DNA from: Candidatus Pacearchaeota archaeon
GTDB lineage: Archaea; Nanobdellota; Nanobdellia; Pacearchaeales; GW2011-AR1
DNA length: 36,665 nucleotides
Assembly (NCBI GenBank): GCA_017609915.1
Contig: JAFCDA010000008.1
Location: forward strand, 1 to 36,665
Direction: 5' to 3'
Shown here: piece after piece, positions 7,443-19,292 of the stretch
Position numbering within the stretch: the first letter of the stretch is position 1
Layout of the letters: each line of letters starts with the position of its first letter
Translations under genes and position numbers: made by a program
Notes under the pieces: model-generated
Told to the model about the DNA's origin: nothing
Seen by the model: only the letters and a program-made list of their open reading frames with translations
The model's database searches: none

Positions 7443-7709
7443 ATGAATATTACAACAATACAAATAGACAAAGAAATAAAATCTAGTTTAGATAAATTAA
7501 AAATCCATCATAGAGAAACTTATAATGAATTATTAGATAGATTAATTAACAACACCAAGCCTGTTAATGCGGACAGAGAAAGCCTTATTGCAACAATTGA
7601 AGTTCTTTCCGATCCAGAGTTAATGAAAGGATTAAGTGAATCATTAAAAAGAACAAGCTCAGGAGATTTTGGAACTCCTTTAAATGAAATAGAAAAAGAG
7701 TTAGGATGA
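7443..7709 (+). CDS. RHH-like antitoxin
   Basis: ITTIQIDKEIKSSLDKLKIHHRETYNELLDRLI, small DNA-binding antitoxin-like, directly upstream of a RelE-like ORF. Confidence 0.65.
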   Translation: MNITTIQIDKEIKSSLDKLKIHHRETYNELLDRLINNTKPVNADRESLIATIEVLSDPELMKGLSESLKRTSSGDFGTPLNEIEKELG

Positions 7710-7713
7710 TAAA

Positions 7714-7962
7714 ATGTACGAAATTACATTTGATATAAATGCAAAAAAGATTCTCAAAAAATTAAAAAAAAGTGAGCAGAAAAATATTTTAAACAAAATT
7801 AAAAATCTTAGAGAAAATCCTTATATGGGAAAACGTCTTTCAGGAAATCTTTATGGATTATGGAGATTAAGATTTGATAAGTACAGAATATTATATCAAA
7901 TAATAGAAAATAAATTAATAATAGTAGTCATGAATATTGCTCATAGAAAAAATATTTATTAA
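7714..7962 (+). CDS. RelE/ParE-family mRNA interferase toxin
   Basis: MYEITFDINAKKILKKL...GKRLSGNLYGLWRLRFDKYRILYQI...VVMNIAHRKNIY. Confidence 0.85.
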   Translation: MYEITFDINAKKILKKLKKSEQKNILNKIKNLRENPYMGKRLSGNLYGLWRLRFDKYRILYQIIENKLIIVVMNIAHRKNIY

Positions 7963-8160: not shown

Positions 8161-9312
8161 TTATCTAACTATCAAAGAAGGAATTTTCTTCCATAAAAAC
8201 CAAGAAGGAAACCTAATAAAAACACCTCTGCAAAAAGGAGCTAAAAGAACATTTAGTCCAGAGTCTACGTCAGGTTTCACAACTTCTAAAAGCTTTCCGT
8301 AGTTAAACAAACAAGCAATAGCTCTCCTTATTACCTCTGTTAAAGCCCCTGAAAAACAACCTGTTGCAAGAGCAATAGTCAAAAGAATCGCTCTATTGTT
8401 AAAATAAGGATAAGTTTGCCAAGCAAAAATGCTTGTAGTAATCAACGTAACCCCCAAACAGAGGAAATGGCCCCTCCTTATAGCAATTTCATATAATGCT
8501 TTTAAGAAAAGCAAAACAACTGCCACTGGAACGAAAACAAAAGTCAAGAAAAAGGCCCCTGTGCTAACAAAATACAAGACTATTAAAATAAGTGAAAAGG
8601 CAAAGACTAATTCTGTTAAGAAAAGTCTATATAATTGGTAAAGCATAAACCAAAGAATGCCTTTATTTGAATATACTTCAAAATCAAGATAATAGTCTTT
8701 CAAACATTCATAAAATAAACAAGGGCCAAGAGATCCAATAAACGATCCAAGTAAAACAATAAAAAGCATTAGGCTTAAAAAAGCCACAAAACCTTCACTT
8801 TCTGGAGCCCCTGTTTCAATACTTGCCCAAAGCCAGGAAAACGAAGGAACAAGCCAGATAAAGTTCACTAAAATATAAACAATTAAAGACACTAAAGCAA
8901 ACATCATAGCTCTATTCATTGGATGAGCTCTAAGCCAATTAATAAACGGGCTGGCTTTTACATTCAAGAAGTTTCCAAGACCCCTTCTTCGCTTAGAAAA
9001 AAAGGAAGAAATAGGAAACCAAACCCTCTTTCTCATACCTGAAAGAAAAATTCTTTTTGAAGTAAAGAATAATTTGCAAGATTTCACTTTCAAGTCAAGA
9101 GCCCTCTTTCTCTTTTTCCAAACAAGGATAGTTTCGTACCAAGAATCAATAAGAGCTTTGAAGATTTCTTGATACCAGTATCCTATCACCACACCAACAA
9201 AACAACTAACTGGCAAAAGGAGAGGATAAATTAATGCACAAGTCAAGATGCCTAAAACCCCTCCTAAAAAACCACCCAAAAAATTTCGATTTGTAATACT
9301 TCTTTCTTTCAT
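8161..9312 (-). CDS. Polytopic membrane protein, unknown function (start reset to MKERSI)
   Basis: SD AAAAGGAGA then ATTATTATG; many TM segments. Confidence 0.65.
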   Translation of the reverse strand: MKERSITNRNFLGGFLGGVLGILTCALIYPLLLPVSCFVGVVIGYWYQEIFKALIDSWYETILVWKKRKRALDLKVKSCKLFFTSKRIFLSGMRKRVWFPISSFFSKRRRGLGNFLNVKASPFINWLRAHPMNRAMMFALVSLIVYILVNFIWLVPSFSWLWASIETGAPESEGFVAFLSLMLFIVLLGSFIGSLGPCLFYECLKDYYLDFEVYSNKGILWFMLYQLYRLFLTELVFAFSLILIVLYFVSTGAFFLTFVFVPVAVVLLFLKALYEIAIRRGHFLCLGVTLITTSIFAWQTYPYFNNRAILLTIALATGCFSGALTEVIRRAIACLFNYGKLLEVVKPDVDSGLNVLLAPFCRGVFIRFPSWFLWKKIPSLIVR

Positions 9313-9345
9313 AATAATTCTCCTTTTAAACATTAATATTTTTTA

Positions 9346-9873
9346 TCAACTCCAACTCACAATACTCCACCGACCAAAGTAAAAGATCAAAGTCTTTATT
9401 GTTATCACTACAAGTGTTGCAGCAAAGGAAACACACAATGAGGATTTAATGTCTTCAGGAACAAAAAGAAAATACATCACTAAAAAAGTAGAAACCCCCA
9501 CTAAGAGGAGTATTAACACGTTCCAGCGAAAAAGGCAATAGACAAAGTTAGAAAAGATCATAGAAAGCCCAATAGTTAAAATAAATATCCCTATACCTAA
9601 GAGAATTCCAATTCCTATTACCTTCTTTGTTGGTTCAATCCCTGCCTTGTTCATCAACTCATTTAATCTGTTCAGTTTCTGTAATGAACTAGATATCTGG
9701 GACCCATTATCTTCAAATGGCCCTTCTTGTAATATCAAGAACAAAGACCAAAAAACCACATAGAACAGTATGGTTCCCATCAGCGCACCCATAACAATTA
9801 CTCTCCACCAAATCCCTGTTCTGTCTTCCCCATCATATAATTCTACATTTTCTCCACTCCCTAAGTTTTCCAT
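9346..9873 (-). CDS. Membrane protein, unknown function (start reset to MENLGSG)
   Basis: SD GAAAGGAGAAATTATTATG; four or more TM segments. Confidence 0.6.
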   Translation of the reverse strand: MENLGSGENVELYDGEDRTGIWWRVIVMGALMGTILFYVVFWSLFLILQEGPFEDNGSQISSSLQKLNRLNELMNKAGIEPTKKVIGIGILLGIGIFILTIGLSMIFSNFVYCLFRWNVLILLLVGVSTFLVMYFLFVPEDIKSSLCVSFAATLVVITIKTLIFYFGRWSIVSWS

Positions 9874-9902
9874 AATAATTTCTCCTTTCTCAAACAATGA
9901 AA

Positions 9903-9983
9903 CTAACCAAAAATAAGTGCAAGTAAAAAAAGCACCACACAAACAATCAATACCTCAATTATACAAAAACCTTTATTTTTCAT
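9903..9983 (-). CDS. 26-aa orphan prepilin-like leader/TM peptide, MKNKGFCIIEVLIVCVVLFLLALIFG
   Basis: Reverse strand ATG..TAG; pattern KGF(x)IIEVLIV matches the prepilin signal of the neighbouring GFTLVEVLIV pseudopilins; absent from the ORF track (too short). Confidence 0.5.
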   Translation of the reverse strand: MKNKGFCIIEVLIVCVVLFLLALIFG

Positions 9984-10108
9984 CTCCCAACCCCTTTCCT
10001 TTTTTCAAAAAAAGAGGGGGTTTGATTAAGGTGTCTTTAAATAAACAGCACAACATTTTCAGCTTAGAAACATAATCCCATAATAATCAAACCCTACCTC
10101 CTTAATTG

Positions 10109-10891
10109 TTATTTCCACTTAATCACGATTCCTATTCCAAAGACCCAGTCATCTTTCTGGTCTTTAATATCTGGCAATGAGAAAAAGTAAGTTACATCAG
10201 GAAAAACCAAATTTGCATTTTTCCCAAAACATAGCGGGAGCTTCCATGATAGGCTAGTATTAACCTTGCCATTAAAACCCGGACTTCCGAAAATATACCC
10301 ATCATCATAACCACAATCTCCTCCTAAAGACCAATCAAGACCTTCGTAAACATTAATGTTCTGAAGAACACCAGCACGAAAGTCCCAGCCATTTCCTTTT
10401 GACGAATTCAGCAAAGTATAATTTGAAACATTAAAAAAAGGCGTCATTGTTTGCCGAGGATTGATTTCAAAGGCTTTGCTGAAATTTGCATTAGTAAAAA
10501 ACAGGTCAATAGAATCTTCGCCACTGTACTTAAGCTGTGGCCCAAGATCCCAGAATGCAACACTAAAATTCACATCCAAACCGCCGGCCTGAAAAGCTTT
10601 TCCGATAATATAATTTGTTTCTGTTGCAAAACCAAGTTCTGCAGAATTTTCCATATCAAAGAAATGATTGTCTGCAGACCCTGAATGCCAGAATTTGCCG
10701 TACCATCCAGATACATGACGTGCAGTAATCCCTGTTTGAATTACCCAATCGTCATGAATACTGAAACCATCTGGCGAAACGTATTTGTCTTTCAGAAAAG
10801 ATTCAAATTCATAACTCCAGTCACCAGCAAAAACCTTGTTTGTGATGATTAAAATCATCAACACCATAATTGTAATTAATGCCTTTTTCAT
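10109..10891 (-). CDS. Sec-signal, beta-barrel-like outer-membrane-type protein
   Basis: MKKALITIMVLMILIITNKVFAGDW signal peptide; aromatic-rich alternating strands; C-terminal strand VFGIGIVIKWK; SD CGGAAAGGAGA 6 nt before the ATG. Confidence 0.55.
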   Translation of the reverse strand: MKKALITIMVLMILIITNKVFAGDWSYEFESFLKDKYVSPDGFSIHDDWVIQTGITARHVSGWYGKFWHSGSADNHFFDMENSAELGFATETNYIIGKAFQAGGLDVNFSVAFWDLGPQLKYSGEDSIDLFFTNANFSKAFEINPRQTMTPFFNVSNYTLLNSSKGNGWDFRAGVLQNINVYEGLDWSLGGDCGYDDGYIFGSPGFNGKVNTSLSWKLPLCFGKNANLVFPDVTYFFSLPDIKDQKDDWVFGIGIVIKWK

Positions 10892-10948
10892 AGACATCTC
10901 CTTTCCGAAACCATCTTTTAAAATAAGTTTCTACTTATGTTTTTGTTT

Positions 10949-11077
10949 CTATTTGTGTTTGTTTTTACGACAAGTTTTTTTCTTTTCTTTCCTTTTCTTT
11001 TTTGCTGCCTTCTTCTTTGCCATTCGTTTCTTCGTTGTTAGTCTCTTTTTTTTCGCTACCTTCTTTTTCTTTGCCAC
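10949..11077 (-). CDS. 42-aa lysine-rich histone-H1-like protein (GTG start)
   Basis: SD AAAGGAG-AACAGCT-GTG; MAKKKKVAKKKRLTTKKRMAKKKAAKKKRKEKKKTCRKNKHK; not in the ORF track. Confidence 0.55.
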   Translation of the reverse strand: MAKKKKVAKKKRLTTKKRMAKKKAAKKKRKEKKKTCRKNKHK

Positions 11078-11181
11078 AGCTGTTCTCCTTTATTCAAAGA
11101 CCATCAAACCAAGCATCACTACAGTAGCAATACTCCTTTAATACTAAACACAATTTCCATCATCCTCTGCAAGTAAATAAA

Positions 11182-11222
11182 AACAGGTAGGAAAAGGAAC
11201 ATTCAATTATTTCCTACCTGTT
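11182..11222 (-). terminator. Strong hairpin followed by T-rich tract
   Basis: AACAGGTAGGAAA / TTTCCTACCTGTT perfect 13-bp inverted repeat; minus strand continues TTTATTT. Confidence 0.65.
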
Positions 11223-11250
11223 ACTTAGCGTCCATGCTAACCTCCTCCAA
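11221..11250 (-). CDS. Candidate leader minicistron (TTG start, MEEVSMDAK; internal ATG gives MDAK)
   Basis: AAGGAGG 6 nt before TTG and GGAGGAGG before an in-frame ATG; stop codon sits at the base of the terminator hairpin. Confidence 0.3.
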   Translation of the reverse strand: MEEVSMDAK

Positions 11251-11497
11251 AGCAATCCTCCTTATACTCAACTCAACCCACTTGGAATCTTATTATCTTT
11301 AATTTAAGTTAATGAAAAGCTTAATCTCAGTAGAACATCTCTCCTTATGCTTATCAAATATTGATAAATAATATAATAACAAAAAAAGCCCCCAGCCACA
11401 GAGGAAAAGAAAAACCAGCCAAGGGCTTTTAAAAAGGCTCTGGAACGCCGCACAAAAAAGGAAAGTAAAAAAATCCCAGAGCCAAAACTCACATAAG

Positions 11498-11525
11498 TAA
11501 AATAAAATGATGCAAAGAAGCCCCT
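11498..11525. repeat. 28-nt direct repeat copy 1
   Basis: taaaataaaatgatgcaaagaagcccct, identical at 11648-11675, exactly 150 nt apart. Confidence 0.9.
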
Positions 11526-11647
11526 AGCTTTTTTAGAGGAGGAAAGGAGAGAAACAAACGAATCAAGCCAGGGGCTCAACAAAAAAAGACCTCTGCAGTA
11601 CAGACAAAAAGGAGAAACACCTGCACAAGGTCTAAGTGACACAAAAT

Positions 11648-11675
11648 TAAAATAAAATGATGCAAAGAAGCCCCT
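11648..11675. repeat. 28-nt direct repeat copy 2
   Basis: Identical to 11498-11525. Confidence 0.9.
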
Positions 11676-11849
11676 GCGGTGCGGAGGGAGAGGAAAAAGC
11701 GAGATTCCCGCAAGGGCTTGAAATGCAACAAAATAACTAATATAAAAAAGTAAAATAAGATAATAATGAAAAACCAAGGCCCTGGCTAGTGTGGAAAGGA
11801 GAGTAAAGTAAAAAAACCAGGGCCTGGTTAAGAATATCAAAACTTATTG

Positions 11850-12020
11850 TTAGTCGCGCCGACGTTTTTTTCGATTCCACTTCCTTTCTCTTCCCTTCTT
11901 ATTTTGTTCAGGGAAATGAGAAGAAAAAGATATTAAAATTCCTCCATCAGAATCTCCATCCTCTTCCTCACAAAAAGTTAATACATCTGAATTTTCTTGG
12001 GAACACTCGTTGTTTTCCAT
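11850..12020 (-). CDS. 56-aa small protein with acidic N-half and basic C-terminus
   Basis: SD GAAAGGAG upstream of ATG; MENNECSQENSDVLTFCEEEDGDSDGGILISFSSHFPEQNKKGRERKWNRKKRRRD; not in the ORF track. Confidence 0.5.
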   Translation of the reverse strand: MENNECSQENSDVLTFCEEEDGDSDGGILISFSSHFPEQNKKGRERKWNRKKRRRD

Positions 12021-12072
12021 TGTTCAAACACTCCTTTCATTTAACAATCTTTATAGATTTTAAAAACAACAA

Positions 12073-12158
12073 TGGAGCAGATAGAGATAGGATTCGAACC
12101 TACGAGTCACATCACAAATAAACCTATGATGATGCTTAAGCCTCTTGCATACTGCCCC
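12073..12158 (-). other. Aberrant tRNA-like element 1
   Basis: GGGGCAG...CTGCTCC acceptor-like pairing, D-like arm TGC-AAGAGGCTTAA-GCA, T-arm GTAGG-TTCGAAT-CCTAT; but 6 extra nt before the acceptor 3' strand and a non-canonical anticodon arm. Confidence 0.4.
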
Positions 12159-12231
12159 ACACTTATTCATCAGTTGAAAATCAAGTTGAATTAATAGATT
12201 CCAAGATGAATCAATCATCGTATTGTTAAGT

Positions 12232-12774
12232 CTATGTCTTATGCAACGGAAACGGCGAGACAATAATCTCTGGCTCAATATAAACCACCCTGCCATCGCC
12301 GGTCTTAGGATCAATCATAATTAACCAAGTGGCCGAGAGGGTCTGTGGCATAAATAAACCATTTGGCTCCGGTTGAGGCATTTTATCAAAAGGACCATAA
12401 CCAGCCATATCAACCCCCGCAACATGATCTATCGAAACTACCCTTTCCGGATTGGAATACTGAACACAATAAGGGAGACCATAACCGTAGCACTTGCCTA
12501 TGAAAACTAATTCTCCCTTAAACGGATTAAATAGGTAAGCATAACAAATAAACTTCTCTTGATCCCGAAGCTCATAGATCATCTTTAGAAGTTTCTTTTC
12601 CTGAAAATTAACAATCGCAGGCATACCTATTTGAGCATTTGCCTCTTTCATTGATTCGGCAGTTTGCTTTTGCATCTTCGCATCGGCATCATCTGTTTTT
12701 CTGGTACATCCAGCGATTGAAAAACCAATACAAAGCAATACAACAATCAACAAAATATTTTTAACACTATTCAT
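12232..12774 (-). CDS. Lipoprotein with bacterial lipobox
   Basis: MNSVKNILLIVVLLCIGFSIAGC lipobox; conserved-looking GMPAIVNFQEKKLLKMIYELRDQ and GYGLPYCVQYSNPERV; SD-like AAAGGG. Confidence 0.7.
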   Translation of the reverse strand: MNSVKNILLIVVLLCIGFSIAGCTRKTDDADAKMQKQTAESMKEANAQIGMPAIVNFQEKKLLKMIYELRDQEKFICYAYLFNPFKGELVFIGKCYGYGLPYCVQYSNPERVVSIDHVAGVDMAGYGPFDKMPQPEPNGLFMPQTLSATWLIMIDPKTGDGRVVYIEPEIIVSPFPLHKT

Positions 12775-12844
12775 AATCTACCCTTTCACTAACTAAATAC
12801 ACAATATTAATTTTTTCACATATGATTTACGCTTCTTGGCCTTA

Positions 12845-13198
12845 TTAAAATTTAAGGTCTGTTTCTCCGTACTTACATTTTTTGAGAAAATTTTTCAACT
12901 CAACGCTTTCTATAAGATTCTCATCATATTCAGCAAAGGAATGCCGAATCGCACTTGCAATAGCCTTCTTCGCAATATCATCTGTTGCAGATTCATACTC
13001 ATACTTAGCCTTGACAAGTTCCTGTAGTTTTCCCTCATTGTAACTACGGGTTTGTTTAAAGACTTCCCGGCGCACAGCTTCTCGCTTCGGACCAAAAAAT
13101 CCATACCATTTGATTCCTGCCCACTCAAGACCAAAAGCTGCACATAAAAGCACAGCCAGAATCAAAAGCCCTAACATTACATAACCAAAAGTCTTCAT
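12845..13198 (-). CDS. Small membrane-anchored protein, phage/plasmid-type hypothetical
   Basis: N-terminal TM then FFGPKREAVRREVFKQTRSYNEGKLQELVKAKYEYESA; SD AAAAGGAG. Confidence 0.65.
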   Translation of the reverse strand: MKTFGYVMLGLLILAVLLCAAFGLEWAGIKWYGFFGPKREAVRREVFKQTRSYNEGKLQELVKAKYEYESATDDIAKKAIASAIRHSFAEYDENLIESVELKNFLKKCKYGETDLKF

Positions 13199-13363
13199 TT
13201 TAAATCTCCTTTTAACTAAACTACAATCTTTTCTGTCTCAATCAACACAATCAAGACATACTATTTTTCACATCTTATTTCTATATTAAACTCACTCCCT
13301 TAAGTGAGATTATAAAGGTGACAAACCCTCCAATTCTTTTCAAAACTTTCCAACAACCCATAA

Positions 13364-13460
13364 CAGACCAGACAGGATTTGAACCTGTGTAAGTAACATA
13401 ATCCTTTATGTCATCACCCCAAAAATGGTGAGTAAAATCATGTTGTAAATCTTCTGGCCT
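13364..13460 (-). other. Aberrant class-II-like tRNA-like element 2
   Basis: 7-bp acceptor AGGCCAG/CTGGTCT directly following T-arm ACAGG-TTCAAAT-CCTGT; long variable arm ACATAA-AGGA-TTATGT; anticodon arm TCACC..GGTGA has an 8-nt loop; no GG D-loop. Confidence 0.45.
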
Positions 13461-13541
13461 AACCACAAACACGCTTCCTTGCTTCTCGGAGCACACCGAG
13501 TCTACACTAAAACAAAATTCAACGCACAGAACCTTATTTGT

Positions 13542-13766
13542 TCACAATGTAGAATAAACTTCCTTGCACTTTTCAGAAACATACTTGAAAAAGTTCCCTA
13601 TTTTTTCACCAGCCTCCTTGCACTGCCTTAACGTAATTTTACTTTTAGCAGAGAATACTATTTCATCACTCTCATCTTTTGACACCTCAAAATCTGTGAT
13701 TCCAATATATGTTACAATCACAAAAATAAACAGTGTCATTAAAACTAATCTCTTGAGAGTTTTCAT
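13542..13766 (-). CDS. Small membrane/secreted protein (start reset to MKTLKRL)
   Basis: SD AAGGAG upstream of ATTTATTATG; N-terminal TM. Confidence 0.5.
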   Translation of the reverse strand: MKTLKRLVLMTLFIFVIVTYIGITDFEVSKDESDEIVFSAKSKITLRQCKEAGEKIGNFFKYVSEKCKEVYSTL

Positions 13767-13803
13767 AATAAATCTCCTTGCCATTAAAAAATTAAAAGTT
13801 AGA

Positions 13804-14187
13804 TTATTCGTTAGGATCCTGTATTCTGGTTCCTTCTACAAAAAGCACAAGAGCACCCGGAGCTGGAGGATTTTCCCTATCAAATGTCCAAGTTCCTAAA
13901 TCCGCTATTTCACCTCTTTTTAAATCATCCTCAAGACTGAGAAAATACTGCTCAGAAAGTTCAAGGAATTTTTTCAGGTCATCCTCTTTTATTAAACAAA
14001 TTTTTTCATCCCGATAAGAATACTCCATTTTTACGCAGTAGTTAGACCTGAGATATTCAATAACTTCTGAATACCTATTCTGCGCTACACCTTCTTGAAT
14101 TTGTGGAACCACTATGCATGCCAAAATCACCAAGATGACAACAACAATCAGAACCTCCACCAATGTAAAACCATTTCGCGTCTTCAT
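13804..14187 (-). CDS. Type II/IV pseudopilin-anchored protein A
   Basis: MKTRNGFTLVEVLIVVVILVILACIVVPQI prepilin signal; C-term LGTWTFDRENPP...EGTRIQDPNE; SD AAAGGAT. Confidence 0.8.
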   Translation of the reverse strand: MKTRNGFTLVEVLIVVVILVILACIVVPQIQEGVAQNRYSEVIEYLRSNYCVKMEYSYRDEKICLIKEDDLKKFLELSEQYFLSLEDDLKRGEIADLGTWTFDRENPPAPGALVLFVEGTRIQDPNE

Positions 14188-14201
14188 AATAAAAATCCTT
14201 T
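14103..14201 (-). repeat. 99-bp exact repeat, copy 1 (leader plus pilin signal module)
   Basis: Identical by eye to 15569-15667. Confidence 0.92.
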
Positions 14202-14235
14202 ACAAGTTAAACAAAATTTTCTTTTTCCAAAAACC

Positions 14236-14276
14236 CATAACAGCTGACTCTTTGTAAAACAATACAAAAAGTCAGT
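14236..14276. terminator. Intergenic hairpin
   Basis: CTGACTCTTTGT..ACAAAaAGTCAG inverted repeat between pseudopilin genes. Confidence 0.45.
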
Positions 14277-14294
14277 TCGTTGCAAGTTCTCAGA

Positions 14295-14699
14295 CTATTC
14301 TTCCGGTTCTTCCAGGATTCTGGTGCCAATCCAATCAGAATAAATAAAAATAAGTTGTTGCTCAGAAATAGATACTAAATCTTTATCTAATTCAAAAGCC
14401 CAAGCACCTAGAAATCCTTTTTCTAACACCCCCCTAAGGTTAACAAAGTTCATGTTGCTAAAGTTAGGAAAAGATTTAGAAGAATCTTCAGCAACCTTTA
14501 TAGTCAATTCAAGCCCAGATGCTGAATATCTGATTTCTATAATCTTTTCAGGGCAATTGACCATAAATTGACAAACAGAAGAATACTTTACCCTATTCCT
14601 AACAGCCTGAATTGGAGGAATGATTAACCCTAAAAGAATCATTAAAAGCGCCAAAACAACTAGGAATTCAATTAGTGTAAACCCATTTCTCTTTTTCAT
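14295..14699 (-). CDS. Type II/IV pseudopilin-anchored protein B
   Basis: MKKRNGFTLIEFLVVLALLMILLGLIIPPI; C-term LGAWAFELDKD...DWIGTRILEEPEE; SD AAAGGAG. Confidence 0.8.
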   Translation of the reverse strand: MKKRNGFTLIEFLVVLALLMILLGLIIPPIQAVRNRVKYSSVCQFMVNCPEKIIEIRYSASGLELTIKVAEDSSKSFPNFSNMNFVNLRGVLEKGFLGAWAFELDKDLVSISEQQLIFIYSDWIGTRILEEPEE

Positions 14700-14736
14700 A
14701 ATCTTTCTCCTTTGCCCATAAGGCAGTTAAAAGTTT

Positions 14737-15147
14737 TTATTTTTCTTTTAGTTCTCGAGTACCTGTATAAATTATATATTCTTCTGCGTAGTCTTTTCCT
14801 CCTATAACCCTTTTCTTTTCTTCAAAAGTCCATCCTGTCCAATCTTTTTTCTCCCTCTTTGTTAGCGCTGATTCAAGACGCTCCCAATCCTCCTTATGTA
14901 ATTTGAACTCACTCTTTTTGTTTTTTCCTGTGATGATTAACTCTTCAGTATGTTCATTATAAACCATCTTAATGAAGGAAGGATTCATTGCTACCTCATT
15001 TTTTACAATCCCAGGAGAAACAAATCTTAAAGGGATGGCAATAAAACAAACTACCATCATTGGGAAGATAATTAAACAAAATAATACAATACCTAACCAT
15101 GAAGTTTGACAACCTATTTTTTCATTATTATTTTTTTCACTGTCCAT
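14737..15147 (-). CDS. TM-anchored paralog without prepilin signal (start reset to MDSEKNNN)
   Basis: Single TM (WLGIVLFCLIIFPMMVVCFIAI) then the same C-terminal pattern, WTGWTFEEKKR...YTGTRELKEK. Confidence 0.65.
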   Translation of the reverse strand: MDSEKNNNEKIGCQTSWLGIVLFCLIIFPMMVVCFIAIPLRFVSPGIVKNEVAMNPSFIKMVYNEHTEELIITGKNKKSEFKLHKEDWERLESALTKREKKDWTGWTFEEKKRVIGGKDYAEEYIIYTGTRELKEK

Positions 15148-15192
15148 AACATTTTCCCCTTTCAAAAACATTAACAAAAACATTTTTAACGG

Positions 15193-15258
15193 TGCACAGT
15201 AGCCCCTTCTCACCAAACCACCAAGCAAAAATAAAGCAAGAAGGGGTTGACTACGAAT
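15193..15258 (-). terminator. Hairpin between paralog genes
   Basis: AGCCCCTTCT ... AGAAGGGGTT inverted arms. Confidence 0.45.
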
Positions 15259-15260
15259 CG

Positions 15261-15653
15261 TTATTCTGGTTTTCGAGTGCCAGACCATCGAAGATATGAT
15301 TTACTAAGTTCTTTATTTCCTACAAAATACTCTTCTGATTCAAAAGTCCATCTTCCTAACTTAGGATCACTGCCCTTTTCTAAATTTGTTTTGAGTTTGT
15401 AAAAATCCTCAATATTAAGAGGAAGGAGTCTCTCGAAATTTTCTTTGGTAATTAAAAGAATTTCCCCTCCATACTCTTTAATTACTTCATCCCTCTCAGA
15501 ATATTCGATTCTCACATAATTTGGATCAAGGATGTTAATAACCCCTAAATCCCCTGGACCTGTAATTCGTGGAACCACTATGCATGCCAAAATCACCAAG
15601 ATGACAACAACAATCAGAACCTCCACCAATGTAAAACCATTTCGCGTCTTCAT
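15261..15653 (-). CDS. Type II/IV pseudopilin-anchored protein C
   Basis: MKTRNGFTLVEVLIVVVILVILACIVVPRI; C-term LGRWTFESEEY...RWSGTRKPE. Confidence 0.8.
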   Translation of the reverse strand: MKTRNGFTLVEVLIVVVILVILACIVVPRITGPGDLGVINILDPNYVRIEYSERDEVIKEYGGEILLITKENFERLLPLNIEDFYKLKTNLEKGSDPKLGRWTFESEEYFVGNKELSKSYLRWSGTRKPE

Positions 15654-15667
15654 AATAAAAATCCTTT
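15569..15667 (-). repeat. 99-bp exact repeat, copy 2
   Basis: Identical by eye to 14103-14201. Confidence 0.92.
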
Positions 15668-15722
15668 TTTCAAATCCTTTTTCCTGATTTTTCATAACAA
15701 TTTTCCCCTTTCATCTATAATA

Positions 15723-15873
15723 TAAGGTATTTCGCGTTAATTTTACCTTATTTTACAAGGTATTTCAAGTATATTGAAGGTATTCCGCATTCCGCGCAGA
15801 ATTCCTCTTAGAAATTGTATTATTGTTTACCTTTAGTTCAGTTTGTTATTTCCTAACAATAAAGGTATTTTAT
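15723..15873. repeat. Iteron-like repeats AAGGTATTYC
   Basis: AAGGTATTTCGCG (15724), AAGGTATTTCAAG (15757), AAGGTATTCCGC (15777), AAGGTATTTTA (15862), plus inverted TACCTTATTTT and TACCTTT. Confidence 0.5.
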
Positions 15874-16167
15874 CACATGTATTATGCAAGGCACAATCTC
15901 ATGTAACATCTGACTACATTTTTTCTTATAATCTTTATAGATTTAAAATCAAATTTTTGATTTTTATTTATCTATTTTTTATTAGATTATTGTTGTTTTT
16001 GCTTTTGTAGTTTGTTTTTGTGTTGTGTTAAATTTTGTGAATATGATTTTGTGATTTTATATTATTCTGCGTTTCCTTAATATCTCTACAAGCTCAATCG
16101 AGTTTGATTATCTGAGTCTTTTAAGCCCTCATCTTCATCTCTCCCTACGCTTAAGAGATATAGGTTT

Positions 16168-18192
16168 TTAAGCCAATTTTATAATCTTTTTCCAGCCCTT
16201 ATTATACTTGATTTCTTGAATCTTAATCTTGTTTTGTTCTATTAATTTATCCTTAATCTTGTTTCCTTTTCTTGCTGATAATCCTACTTGTTTATAGAGT
16301 TGAACAGTCCCTAATTCATGACTTGGATTTTCCTGCAGAAAAGCTAAAAATCTCTTCTGCGCATCATCTGATTCTTTCTTAAATAAAGCACTATTTTCCT
16401 GCTTATAAACCTTTTTGTTTTGTCTTCCCTCTAAAGTAACAACTCTATTATCTAATTCTTGGACTAATGCTTTAGAAATATCTTCATTACTATATTCTCC
16501 TTGTTCTTTTCTTTCCTGCATAAACCTTTGAATTTCATTAATATCCCATCCTTGACTTAATTTATCTTCAGCAAATTCATGCAATATTTCTTGTGCAGGT
16601 GTTAAATTAATAATTTTATTCTCTATATCTTTATTTATATCTCTTATATCTTCAAGTTCTACTATTTCTGATTGAGCAGCTTGATTAAGATTAGAATTAT
16701 CAGTTTTGTTTTCAGTTTCTGGATGCATTTTATCTTCAAAATCTGTTTTTAACTCATTAACTTCTTGAGCTTCTCCATCATATAATGGATGAGCAGGAAC
16801 TCTTACATCTTCAACTTCTCCTTTAACAGCTTTACTAAAATCATCTTCTCCTTGTTCTATTTCTTTACTTTCAAAAATAAATTTCATTTTCTCTTTAATA
16901 TCTTTATCATTAACTATATTTTTCCTTAAATCAGCTTTTTCAACTTCAATTAAAAAAGGATTTGTATATCTTTCAGCTAATTTAACAATAGCTGTTCCTA
17001 CCTGTAATTTAGAGAAAAATTCTTTTCTATCACTTAATTGCATTATCCCACTAATATCCCAAATATCTTGTGGTAACTGTTGCTGGAATGCAATATGACA
17101 AGCACTATTACCTTTAACAGTATCACTTAATTTTGAAATATGCTGATCTAAACAAATTAAAGAAGTTCCATATTCTCTCATTTCTCTATAAATCATATCT
17201 GTAACAGATTCTTTAACAAAATTAGTTTTATCTTTTAAGAAAATATTTTTTTTTAACTTGTAAATATATGTTAAAATAAACTCACAAAAAAACTTTTTTT
17301 CAATATTCCCAAGAGAATTTAATTCAAAAAGAACTTTTTTCTTAAGTAAATCTTCAACAGAAATACTTTGTTTTCCCTTATAATTTAATACATTTCCAAA
17401 ATCTCCAAAAGTTAATACACTAGCAATTCTTAATGCGCTTTCTAACCATCCAGATTCTCTTCCTTTTGCTTTTTCTAATTTTGTTTCTAATCTCCATTTA
17501 ATATAGTTCCAGGTAGGATAGTTTTCACTTCCTTCATAAACCCCATATTCTTTATAAGCATCATCTAATGTTTCTAACAAAACCTTGTGAACACCATAAG
17601 ATGTAAAAAAACTTTCTCCAACTAAATCACATAAAACATTAATCCATTCTTTAGGATTAACGCCTTTAGGGGGTTTATTTATATTTAATTTAAATAAATT
17701 ACTTACATCATTATTTCCAACTGTAAAACACATTAATTCTGAATCTAAAGTCATTAAAGGTCTAAATGATTTTTTCCAGTCAAATATTAAAAAAGGTTTT
17801 TCTTTGTCAATAAAATTTTTAATTATATGAAAACCAAGAGTTGTTTTTCCACTTCCACTCATTCCAGAAATACATAAGTGTCTAATCCAATCTTGTTCTC
17901 TTAAATTAAAATCATGAAGTTTTTTCCCTGCATAACTTATTGATGCAAGAGCATACTCCCCATCAATAATATCTTGTGCTGGAGGTTCTAACAACACAGA
18001 ATTATCAAGTAATCTACTAAGATTTTTCTCATAAAGAGCATTAAGAATATGCGCGATTTCTTCTCTTTCTTCTCTATCTTCAGCCATAACATATTTCAAA
18101 TAGATTTCATCTATTTTCTTGCCGAAAACAGGTTTAAGTTTTCTACATATTTCTTCAGTTGTTATTTGTCTTTGCATTTTAAAATTCTCCAT
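16168..18192 (-). CDS. HerA/VirD4-like P-loop ATPase with C-terminal winged helix
   Basis: Walker A CISGMSGSGKTTLGFHI, FDWKKSFRPL, Walker-B-like TSLICLDQHISKL; C-term ELGTVQLYKQVGLSARKGNKIKDKLIE. Confidence 0.75.
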   Translation of the reverse strand: MENFKMQRQITTEEICRKLKPVFGKKIDEIYLKYVMAEDREEREEIAHILNALYEKNLSRLLDNSVLLEPPAQDIIDGEYALASISYAGKKLHDFNLREQDWIRHLCISGMSGSGKTTLGFHIIKNFIDKEKPFLIFDWKKSFRPLMTLDSELMCFTVGNNDVSNLFKLNINKPPKGVNPKEWINVLCDLVGESFFTSYGVHKVLLETLDDAYKEYGVYEGSENYPTWNYIKWRLETKLEKAKGRESGWLESALRIASVLTFGDFGNVLNYKGKQSISVEDLLKKKVLFELNSLGNIEKKFFCEFILTYIYKLKKNIFLKDKTNFVKESVTDMIYREMREYGTSLICLDQHISKLSDTVKGNSACHIAFQQQLPQDIWDISGIMQLSDRKEFFSKLQVGTAIVKLAERYTNPFLIEVEKADLRKNIVNDKDIKEKMKFIFESKEIEQGEDDFSKAVKGEVEDVRVPAHPLYDGEAQEVNELKTDFEDKMHPETENKTDNSNLNQAAQSEIVELEDIRDINKDIENKIINLTPAQEILHEFAEDKLSQGWDINEIQRFMQERKEQGEYSNEDISKALVQELDNRVVTLEGRQNKKVYKQENSALFKKESDDAQKRFLAFLQENPSHELGTVQLYKQVGLSARKGNKIKDKLIEQNKIKIQEIKYNKGWKKIIKLA

Positions 18193-18898
18193 TTAATTCT
18201 TCATCTCTAAAAACAATTTCAAGATCTAAATCAGCAAAAATAGTATTAGAACAATTTAAATGTTTAACATAATCTGGAGTCCTATATTCTCTTTTTTCAT
18301 CTATTTTTACTACCCTATTTTCATAATTTTCATATAATTCAAATAAAGCTTCATCATCCATACCTTTTATTTCACCATTCTTAATCTTATTACATAAAGC
18401 AACAGATTTATCAGCTTGTTTTGCAAACCTTTTTTCTAATTTGTTGATTTTTCTTTTCTTTATCTCCTTCTCTAATTCAGAAGCAACTACCCAAATATGA
18501 TTTACATATTGGTCATAACAAGGATGTCTATTTCCAGTTAATCTTTCATATTCCTGATTTAATTTATACATTACACCTATTTTACCAAAATTCTTATTCT
18601 TTTTATTTCCTTTATGAATTTCTAATTCTTTTTTCAAAGCAAAAGTATTCAAACCTTTTAATTCTCCATGAACAAACCTATTAGCAAGTTCAAGAGCAAT
18701 ATTTGATTCAAATAAAAATTGATTTTCTAATTCATTAATCCTCTTAGGTTTATCTTGTTCATATTCCTTTAAATTATTTGGAAGATAATCTGAGAAAGTA
18801 TAATCTTTATCTGTAAATTTCATTCCATTTCTCTTAATTTCCATTAATGGTTTTAGTTCTTCAAAATTCATTTTATTTTTCCTCCAAAATCTTTCCAA
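18179..18898 (-). CDS. Hypothetical coiled-coil protein in ATPase operon
   Basis: 239-aa ORF overlapping the ATPase gene start. Confidence 0.55.
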   Translation of the reverse strand: MERFWRKNKMNFEELKPLMEIKRNGMKFTDKDYTFSDYLPNNLKEYEQDKPKRINELENQFLFESNIALELANRFVHGELKGLNTFALKKELEIHKGNKKNKNFGKIGVMYKLNQEYERLTGNRHPCYDQYVNHIWVVASELEKEIKKRKINKLEKRFAKQADKSVALCNKIKNGEIKGMDDEALFELYENYENRVVKIDEKREYRTPDYVKHLNCSNTIFADLDLEIVFRDEELNGEF

Positions 18899-19292
18899 AC
18901 ATTTCTAGTCTACCTTGTTTTTCATTTAATTCTCTTTGTTTTTCTCTTAATTCTTTTCTAAGTAAAGCAACATCTTTCCAAGAACTAACTTTTTCATTTA
19001 ATTGTAATTCAGATAATTCAACTCTTTTTTGTCTAAGAGAAATTTTTTCTCTTACATCATCTACTTCAGCAACACTATTTTTAGCATCAACTTCTAACAA
19101 AAAATTATCAATATCTCTTTTCTCTTTTTCAGCTTCTTCAAAAATCTTTTTACTAAGCTTTTTTCTAGAAATAATAAGTTCCCCTATTTCTTCAATAGCC
19201 TCTTTAAGTGAATCTAATTTTTCCTTTCCAATGTTGTCCAAGCTATCAGAGGTATTCCGGGGTTTTTCAAGTGAAATATCTTTAAATTCCAT
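18873..19292 (-). CDS. Hypothetical coiled-coil protein in ATPase operon
   Basis: 139-aa charged coiled coil overlapping the next gene. Confidence 0.55.
   Translation of the reverse strand: MEFKDISLEKPRNTSDSLDNIGKEKLDSLKEAIEEIGELIISRKKLSKKIFEEAEKEKRDIDNFLLEVDAKNSVAEVDDVREKISLRQKRVELSELQLNEKVSSWKDVALLRKELREKQRELNEKQGRLEMFGKILEEK

Follow-up and report, generated by a model that had tools for sequence, protein, structure and literature searches.

A multi-hairpin, putative translational-control or 3'-end RNA in a bacterial-format cargo island beside a HerA/VirB4/CedD-like ATPase on an archaeal chromosome

The T-DNA of Agrobacterium consists of genes formatted for expression in another domain of life, which lie next to a DNA transport ATPase of the VirB4 type. 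Intrinsic (Rho-independent) terminators are GC-rich stems with short loops, found on the sense strand where genes end and followed by a U tract. Among small RNAs, LhrC1-5 of Listeria monocytogenes occur in several copies with CU-rich loop motifs (CUCCC..UUUU) that bind Shine-Dalgarno (SD) regions, each copy being a separate transcription unit with its own LisR-dependent promoter (PMC4132741). Archaeal integrons carry variable, foreign-type genes with hairpins between them (PMC9668308), and in the Ced system of the Crenarchaeota (CedB/CedD; PMC11868833, PMC9905601) CedD is needed in Saccharolobus for the import, and not the export, of DNA (PMC11868833).

A locus that resembles each of these in part lies in the stretch of 36,665 nucleotides of archaeal DNA analysed here (the window). 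As a whole it matches no kind that we could find, and no description of such a locus was found in the open-access literature searched. It shares with LhrC1-5 the several copies and the CU-rich loops, but those are separate sRNAs with promoters and terminators and here there are six stems in one stretch of an archaeal chromosome; no sequence relation between the two was found. GC-rich stems with U tracts on the sense strand at a gene end are also the marks of intrinsic terminators, although the loops of the array are not short, at 17-34 nt, and its six units are consecutive. As in archaeal integrons, variable genes of foreign type are accompanied by hairpins between genes, but the hairpins are without attC ends and no integrase was found in the window. 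The neighbouring ATPase is closest to CedD among the named NCBIfam families, but falls below the CedD cut-off and is followed by cargo genes in bacterial format. The likeness to T-DNA is that of genes in the format of another domain beside a VirB4-like ATPase; it differs in that no borders or relaxase are shown for the island. Of the signals that a bacterial recipient would read, SDs and terminators fit and sigma-70 promoters are not enriched.

The array (11384-11829) consists of six stem-loops, as the first-pass annotation had proposed and as folding bears out. By RNAfold each is more stable as read from the minus strand, at -15.4 to -24.1 kcal/mol compared with -10.4 to -21.5 kcal/mol for the plus strand. 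Read along the minus strand, hairpin 1 lies at 11772-11829 (loop ..ACUCUCCUUUCCACAC..; -24.1 minus, -21.5 plus), hairpin 2 at 11668-11719 (loop ..CUUUUUCCUCUCCCUCC..; -21.9 and -18.9), hairpin 3 at 11587-11633 (loop ..UUUCUCCUUUUUG.., followed by U7; -15.4 and -12.3), hairpin 4 at 11518-11577 (loop ..UUUCUCUCCUUUCCUCCUC.. with the core TTTCTCTCCTTTCC; -21.6 and -15.5), hairpin 5 at 11436-11483 (loop ..ACUUUCCUUUUUUG.., followed by U5; -18.4 and -14.0) and hairpin 6 at 11384-11430 (loop ..UUCUUUUCCUCUG.., followed by U7; -18.6 and -10.4). Over the 470-nt stretch the minimum free energy has a z of -7.2 on the minus strand and -3.4 on the plus strand, which, with the 12 G-U pairs that the stems contain in the minus-strand reading, identifies the strand as minus. 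The units measure 46-60 nt and within two neighbouring pairs of hairpins the spacing is just 6-10 nt. Most stems had been said to end in a U tract, and by reading this is true of four of the six (hairpins 1, 3, 5 and 6), which have a clean U run 3' of them, but not of hairpins 2 and 4, after which comes CUUCUUUGCAUCAUUUUAUUUU, belonging to a direct repeat of 36 nt. Within 653 kb of ATPase loci no other cluster of strong large-loop hairpins is as dense as this array, and no cluster of CU-loop hairpins above two was seen in 1.6 Mb of loci with the phage gene pair described below. Rfam gave nothing at gathering threshold, the best permissive match having an E value of 0.55, which is at chance level.

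The stems, previously taken to be unrelated, are diverged tandem copies with arms AAGCCCYTGGC.. / ..GCYRGGGGCTT. Among the six there are 14 compensatory cells, in which both sides have changed and pairing is kept, counted in an alignment made by hand and thus biased toward pairing; MAFFT had misaligned the arms. The argument drawn from unrelated stems therefore falls, yet the evidence for kept pairing is strengthened.

The loops have a pyrimidine fraction of 0.71-0.81 and are CU-rich on the minus strand as first described, although the lengths then quoted were too short. When Watson-Crick runs between the loops and nine SD regions of the island are summed they reach 348, where shuffled loops give 270 +/- 14 (0/300), and with G-U pairs included 493 against 409 +/- 20 (0/300); the complementarity to island SDs that had been claimed is thus better than that of shuffles. 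The spacers between the hairpins, which are equally T-rich, show no such excess of SD pairing, and CTCC/TTCC is present in the loops and not in the spacers. Three loops have CTCCTTT(C) in common with the end of bacterial 16S rRNA, and the tail CUCCUUUC of the loops is the 3' end of that rRNA; in five relatives of the host the 16S ends read CCUCCUA.. or CCUCCUUAAU.. (in DNA letters CCTCCTA.. or CCTCCTTAAT..). Taken together, these comparisons support the array being a minus-strand structured RNA whose anti-SD-like loops are selected beyond composition.

The core TTTCTCTCCTTTCC is also present in sense-strand hairpins with other stems in the islands of two related genomes (G052 and G219), with a variant in a third (G223). 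Across 181 genomes it is no commoner than a reversed control, which leaves three or four islands as the basis of its recurrence. The large-loop hairpins of other islands are mostly without anti-SD loops. In one such island (G207, locus L223, 1150-1860 nt after the ATPase) consecutive long hairpins precede an SD-led gene and their loops are not anti-SD, which favours a general structural role for tandem hairpins, the anti-SD loops being a local addition.

Several other identities for the array were considered. An open frame of 179 codons (11304-11840, minus strand) spans it, a length reached in 0/1000 shuffles. A protein-coding array was nevertheless rejected, since the frame has no SD and its base composition does not vary with codon position, as it does in the barrel gene described below. 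A sponge for CsrA of the CsrB/RsmZ type, with GGA loops on the plus strand, was rejected because the plus strand folds worse and there is no CsrA in the assembly of the window's genome (G000, 521 kb, 65% complete). The classification as an LhrC-type multicopy sRNA, put forward in the first-pass annotation, could not be upheld: no unit has its own promoter, and the hairpins of the two close pairs leave no room for promoters between them. Sigma-70-like sites are no more frequent in the window's island than in shuffles.

Directly upstream of the array lies an SD-led gene for a 56-aa protein (11850-12020, minus strand; GAAAGGAG 9 nt 5' of the ATG), whose stop codon is 20 nt before hairpin 1 and whose product has no family match. 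From this arrangement we infer that the array is the 3' UTR of the gene or an RNA just after it. Just 3' of the array is an archaeal 35-nt repeat, ATAAGCATAAGGAGAGATGTTCTACTGAGATTAAG / ATAAGCATAGGRAGAGATGYTCTACTGAGATTAAG (11320-11354, minus strand), with 2 mismatches to the consensus; 0 are expected in shuffles, and the genome has 6 copies, for example before Rrp41 and ribosomal protein genes. An apparent diverged copy of ATAAGCATAGGRAGAGATGYTCTACTGAGATTAAG is seen at ~16130-16165 (minus strand), upstream of the first island gene. Next come, all on the minus strand, a terminator-like hairpin with a perfect 13-bp stem followed by U5 (11182-11222), an SD-led GTG gene for a Lys-rich basic protein of 42 aa (10949-11077) and an SD-led gene for a secreted, outer-membrane-barrel-like protein without a Pfam match (10109-10897). 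The barrel gene probably starts at 10891, where the SD (GGAAAGGAG-atgtct-ATG) fits better than at 10897.

On the other side of the 56-aa gene is a conserved phage gene pair (12232-13198, minus strand), a lipoprotein (12232-12774) and a small membrane protein (12845-13198), matching phrog_24725 (1.9e-37) and phrog_26268 (1e-8), respectively. Homologues of the two are adjacent in cyanophage S-SRM01, and the pair has 402 relatives in IMG/VR and 54 on genome contigs. No relatives of the barrel or of a pilin-like protein were found in viral, plasmid or phage sets. A tRNA-like stretch at 12070-12165 (minus strand) has a good T arm (GTAGGTTCGAATCCTAT) and perhaps also an acceptor stem, with no tRNA call at default settings.

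The array is best read as an RNA of several hairpins that belongs to a cargo island in bacterial format and serves either in translational control or as a 3' end. More specifically, we tentatively favour, at somewhat below an even chance, a ~450-nt RNA element whose loops pair with SDs and damp translation. A minus-strand transcript would hold the six diverged stem copies as the 3' part of the 56-aa gene's message or just after it. Since the loop sequences are copies of the 3' tail of bacterial 16S rRNA, the RNA would pair with the AAAGGAG SDs of island or recipient mRNAs, and such pairing in trans may damp the translation of those mRNAs, while the stems and U tracts would stabilise or end the transcript. 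The anti-SD action would take place in a bacterial cell. It counts against this that an anti-SD RNA would repress its own island too.

It is nearly as likely that the hairpins form a tandem 3' end of the 56-aa message, whether as intrinsic terminators in series or as stabilising structures, and so end that message and shield the DNA downstream of it. The CU loops would then simply follow a T-rich non-coding strand and have no target in trans. The U tracts after four of the six hairpins are what such elements would have, and in a consensus scan the window's island has 15 terminator-like sites, almost all of them on the minus strand, where shuffles give 5.3; terminator-like hairpins on the sense strand are in fact a general trait of the islands, and the consecutive hairpins of G207 manage without anti-SD loops. 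Loops of 17-34 nt are however poor for termination, CTCC/TTCC is carried by the loops and not by the spacers, and six consecutive terminators are hard to explain.

The setting of the array had gone unnoticed in the first-pass annotation: the host is an archaeon, and the bacterial-format island adjoins a conserved DNA-translocating ATPase. Towards both ends of the window there are archaeal genes (GatD, GatE and tRNA synthetase genes of archaeal type), which have TATA-like boxes near the start codon and no SDs. Gene style, genome size and relatives suggest that the host is a DPANN-type archaeon. Between them the island (8161-15695, minus strand) has a GC content of ~0.35 compared with 0.27 outside, and its co-oriented SD-led genes have AAAGGAG 6-9 nt before nearly every start. 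The products comprise a lipoprotein, three N-methyl pilin-like proteins, the secreted barrel-like protein and membrane proteins. The three pilin-like genes (13804-15695) have an almost identical N-terminus and differ in their C-terminal parts, and several short repeats AAGGTATT lie in AT-rich DNA that separates the island from the ATPase (15726-15880). The island's far edge is marked by a ParDE/RelBE-like toxin-antitoxin pair (7443-7962, plus strand; PF05016), which is syntenic in a related genome, G010, with 56-59% identity (contig C14, 57.2-57.7 kb).

In G010 the flanks are homologous, with the ATPase, DUF1003, GatD and GatE on one side and the ParDE-like pair, a second GatE, a tRNA synthetase and a phosphoesterase on the other, and the 8 kb between these syntenic flanks shares nothing with the window's island. 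A co-oriented island after the ATPase is found in ~22 genomes with enough contig, in which 295/327 genes are co-oriented. SDs of at least 5 bases precede 208/295 island genes and 50/334 genes outside, and lipoboxes number 23 and 2, respectively. The automatic island borders use SD content, so that this comparison is partly circular, and a fixed window of 3 kb was therefore checked: after the ATPase 77/125 genes are SD-led (at least 5 bases) against 10/93 before it, with 11 lipoboxes against 0. Sixteen genomes of other families show the same tendency (33/54 after the ATPase, 8/28 before), though a few of these, such as G335, G287 and G298, have no such island. Terminator-like hairpins number 32 sense and 7 antisense in the islands, compared with 4 + 9 = 13 in the longer flanks. 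This is a systematic locus in which the island has a fixed place downstream of the ATPase, the flanks are syntenic and the content, SD-led genes for exported proteins, is unrelated between relatives; it thus differs from a chimera and from an ordinary sRNA locus alike.

The HerA/VirB4/CedD-like ATPase heading the island (16168-18192, minus strand; PF01935) has CedD as its best named function, the CedD model matching 22/22 homologues though far below the family cut-off. A model of the G010 homologue (pLDDT 71) matches HerA and VirB4 structures in Foldseek. Walker A and Walker B within a HerA/VirB4 fold are present in the relatives, but in an alignment the window's copy is without ~20 residues that include Walker B (IIVDEAH) and that nearly all of 21 homologues have, so the ATPase in G000 may be inactive or mis-assembled. 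Its conserved partner (18873-19292, minus strand; 32 homologues), predicted to be a long helical hairpin (pLDDT 84), accompanies it in 32 loci. The ATPase is present in 38/181 genomes of the family and in 70/378 sampled in the class, where some matches are weak. No CedA or pilus genes were seen in the window. Since CedD is an import factor in Saccharolobus, the direction of transport cannot be read from this likeness.

By analogy with T-DNA, DPANN archaea might deliver the hypervariable island as DNA to a bacterial partner through the CedD/VirB4-like pump, the envelope proteins and the anti-SD array being expressed there. We consider this cross-domain analogue possible but rather unlikely. Explanations of the island answer a different question from those of the hairpins, and the likelihoods given to the two sets need not sum.

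One such explanation, which we hold to be somewhat doubtful, is a transfer hotspot, in which the CedD-like ATPase imports bacterial or phage DNA that lands beside it, the genes and hairpins being inert passengers. The role of CedD in import rather than export (PMC11868833) suits this, as do a gene pair that is clearly phage-derived and the small share of SD-led proteins (12/176) for which another island holds a homologue. The content is however not random bacterial DNA: the genes are small, co-oriented (295/327) and preceded by SDs, and lipoboxes and hydrophobic N-terminal segments are frequent among them. Inert passengers would not account for the compensatory change in the array stems.

We are similarly sceptical that these are the internal genes of one long, ordinary archaeal operon, with SD sites as in leaderless archaea and proteins secreted by the archaeon itself. 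CCUCCU is present in the 16S of archaeal relatives, some SDs are used in the flanking archaeal operons too, and sigma-70-like promoters are not enriched in the islands. Against this, intrinsic-terminator-like hairpins lie on the sense strand, and the AAAGGA context is found in 91/178 cases in the islands compared with 10/49 outside; the base 5' of AGGA (A versus T), used as a test of bacterial or archaeal SDs, showed no difference, although the AA context did. Among the families in the islands, which include SbmA/BacA, PEP-CTERM, N_methyl, FHA and CBM96, there are also protein types that act in bacterial envelopes, such as SbmA/BacA and PEP-CTERM.

It is improbable that the hairpins act as single-stranded DNA of a transferred or replicating molecule, in recombination of the attC kind, packaging or second-strand start beside the DNA pump. 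Strand-biased G-T pairing would be tolerated in single-stranded DNA too, and island inverted repeats are indeed G-T-biased on the sense strand; a DNA-translocating ATPase adjoins, and the content is hypervariable between syntenic flanks. On the other hand, such hairpins would give the U tracts and anti-SD loops no role. An integron attC array was itself rejected, as the hairpins have no RYYYAAC / GTTRRRY ends and the array holds one chance occurrence of each. No integron tyrosine integrase was found among the scanned window proteins, a scan that did not reach the contig ends. An assembly chimera or contamination, in which an archaeal contig would have been fused with DNA of a bacterium or phage, could be suspected from the sharp change of GC and gene style at both island ends but has a vanishingly small probability. 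The arrangement recurs between homologous flanks in G010 and in many other genomes, which for practical purposes refutes it, and an archaeal repeat lies inside the island.

The array, if only an RNA, would be a new multi-hairpin anti-SD element. Its setting carries more weight: a class of DPANN-type archaea would keep differing gene sets with bacterial signals at a place fixed by the ATPase, marking either a dedicated site of gene capture or a means by which DNA reprograms a bacterial partner. The lifestyle and partner of these uncultured archaea thereby become testable, since island content points to the partner, and island transcripts in bacterial as opposed to archaeal cells would decide between the models.

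Two further loci of a related genome (G025) are of note. In L169 (2220-5197) eight near-identical hairpins, AGGCAACCTTTAATTGA..TTAATTGAAGGTTGCCTTT, lie between small genes in a cassette-like manner, and in L175 (9057-10019) a gene for an SbmA/BacA peptide transporter lies within an archaeal island.
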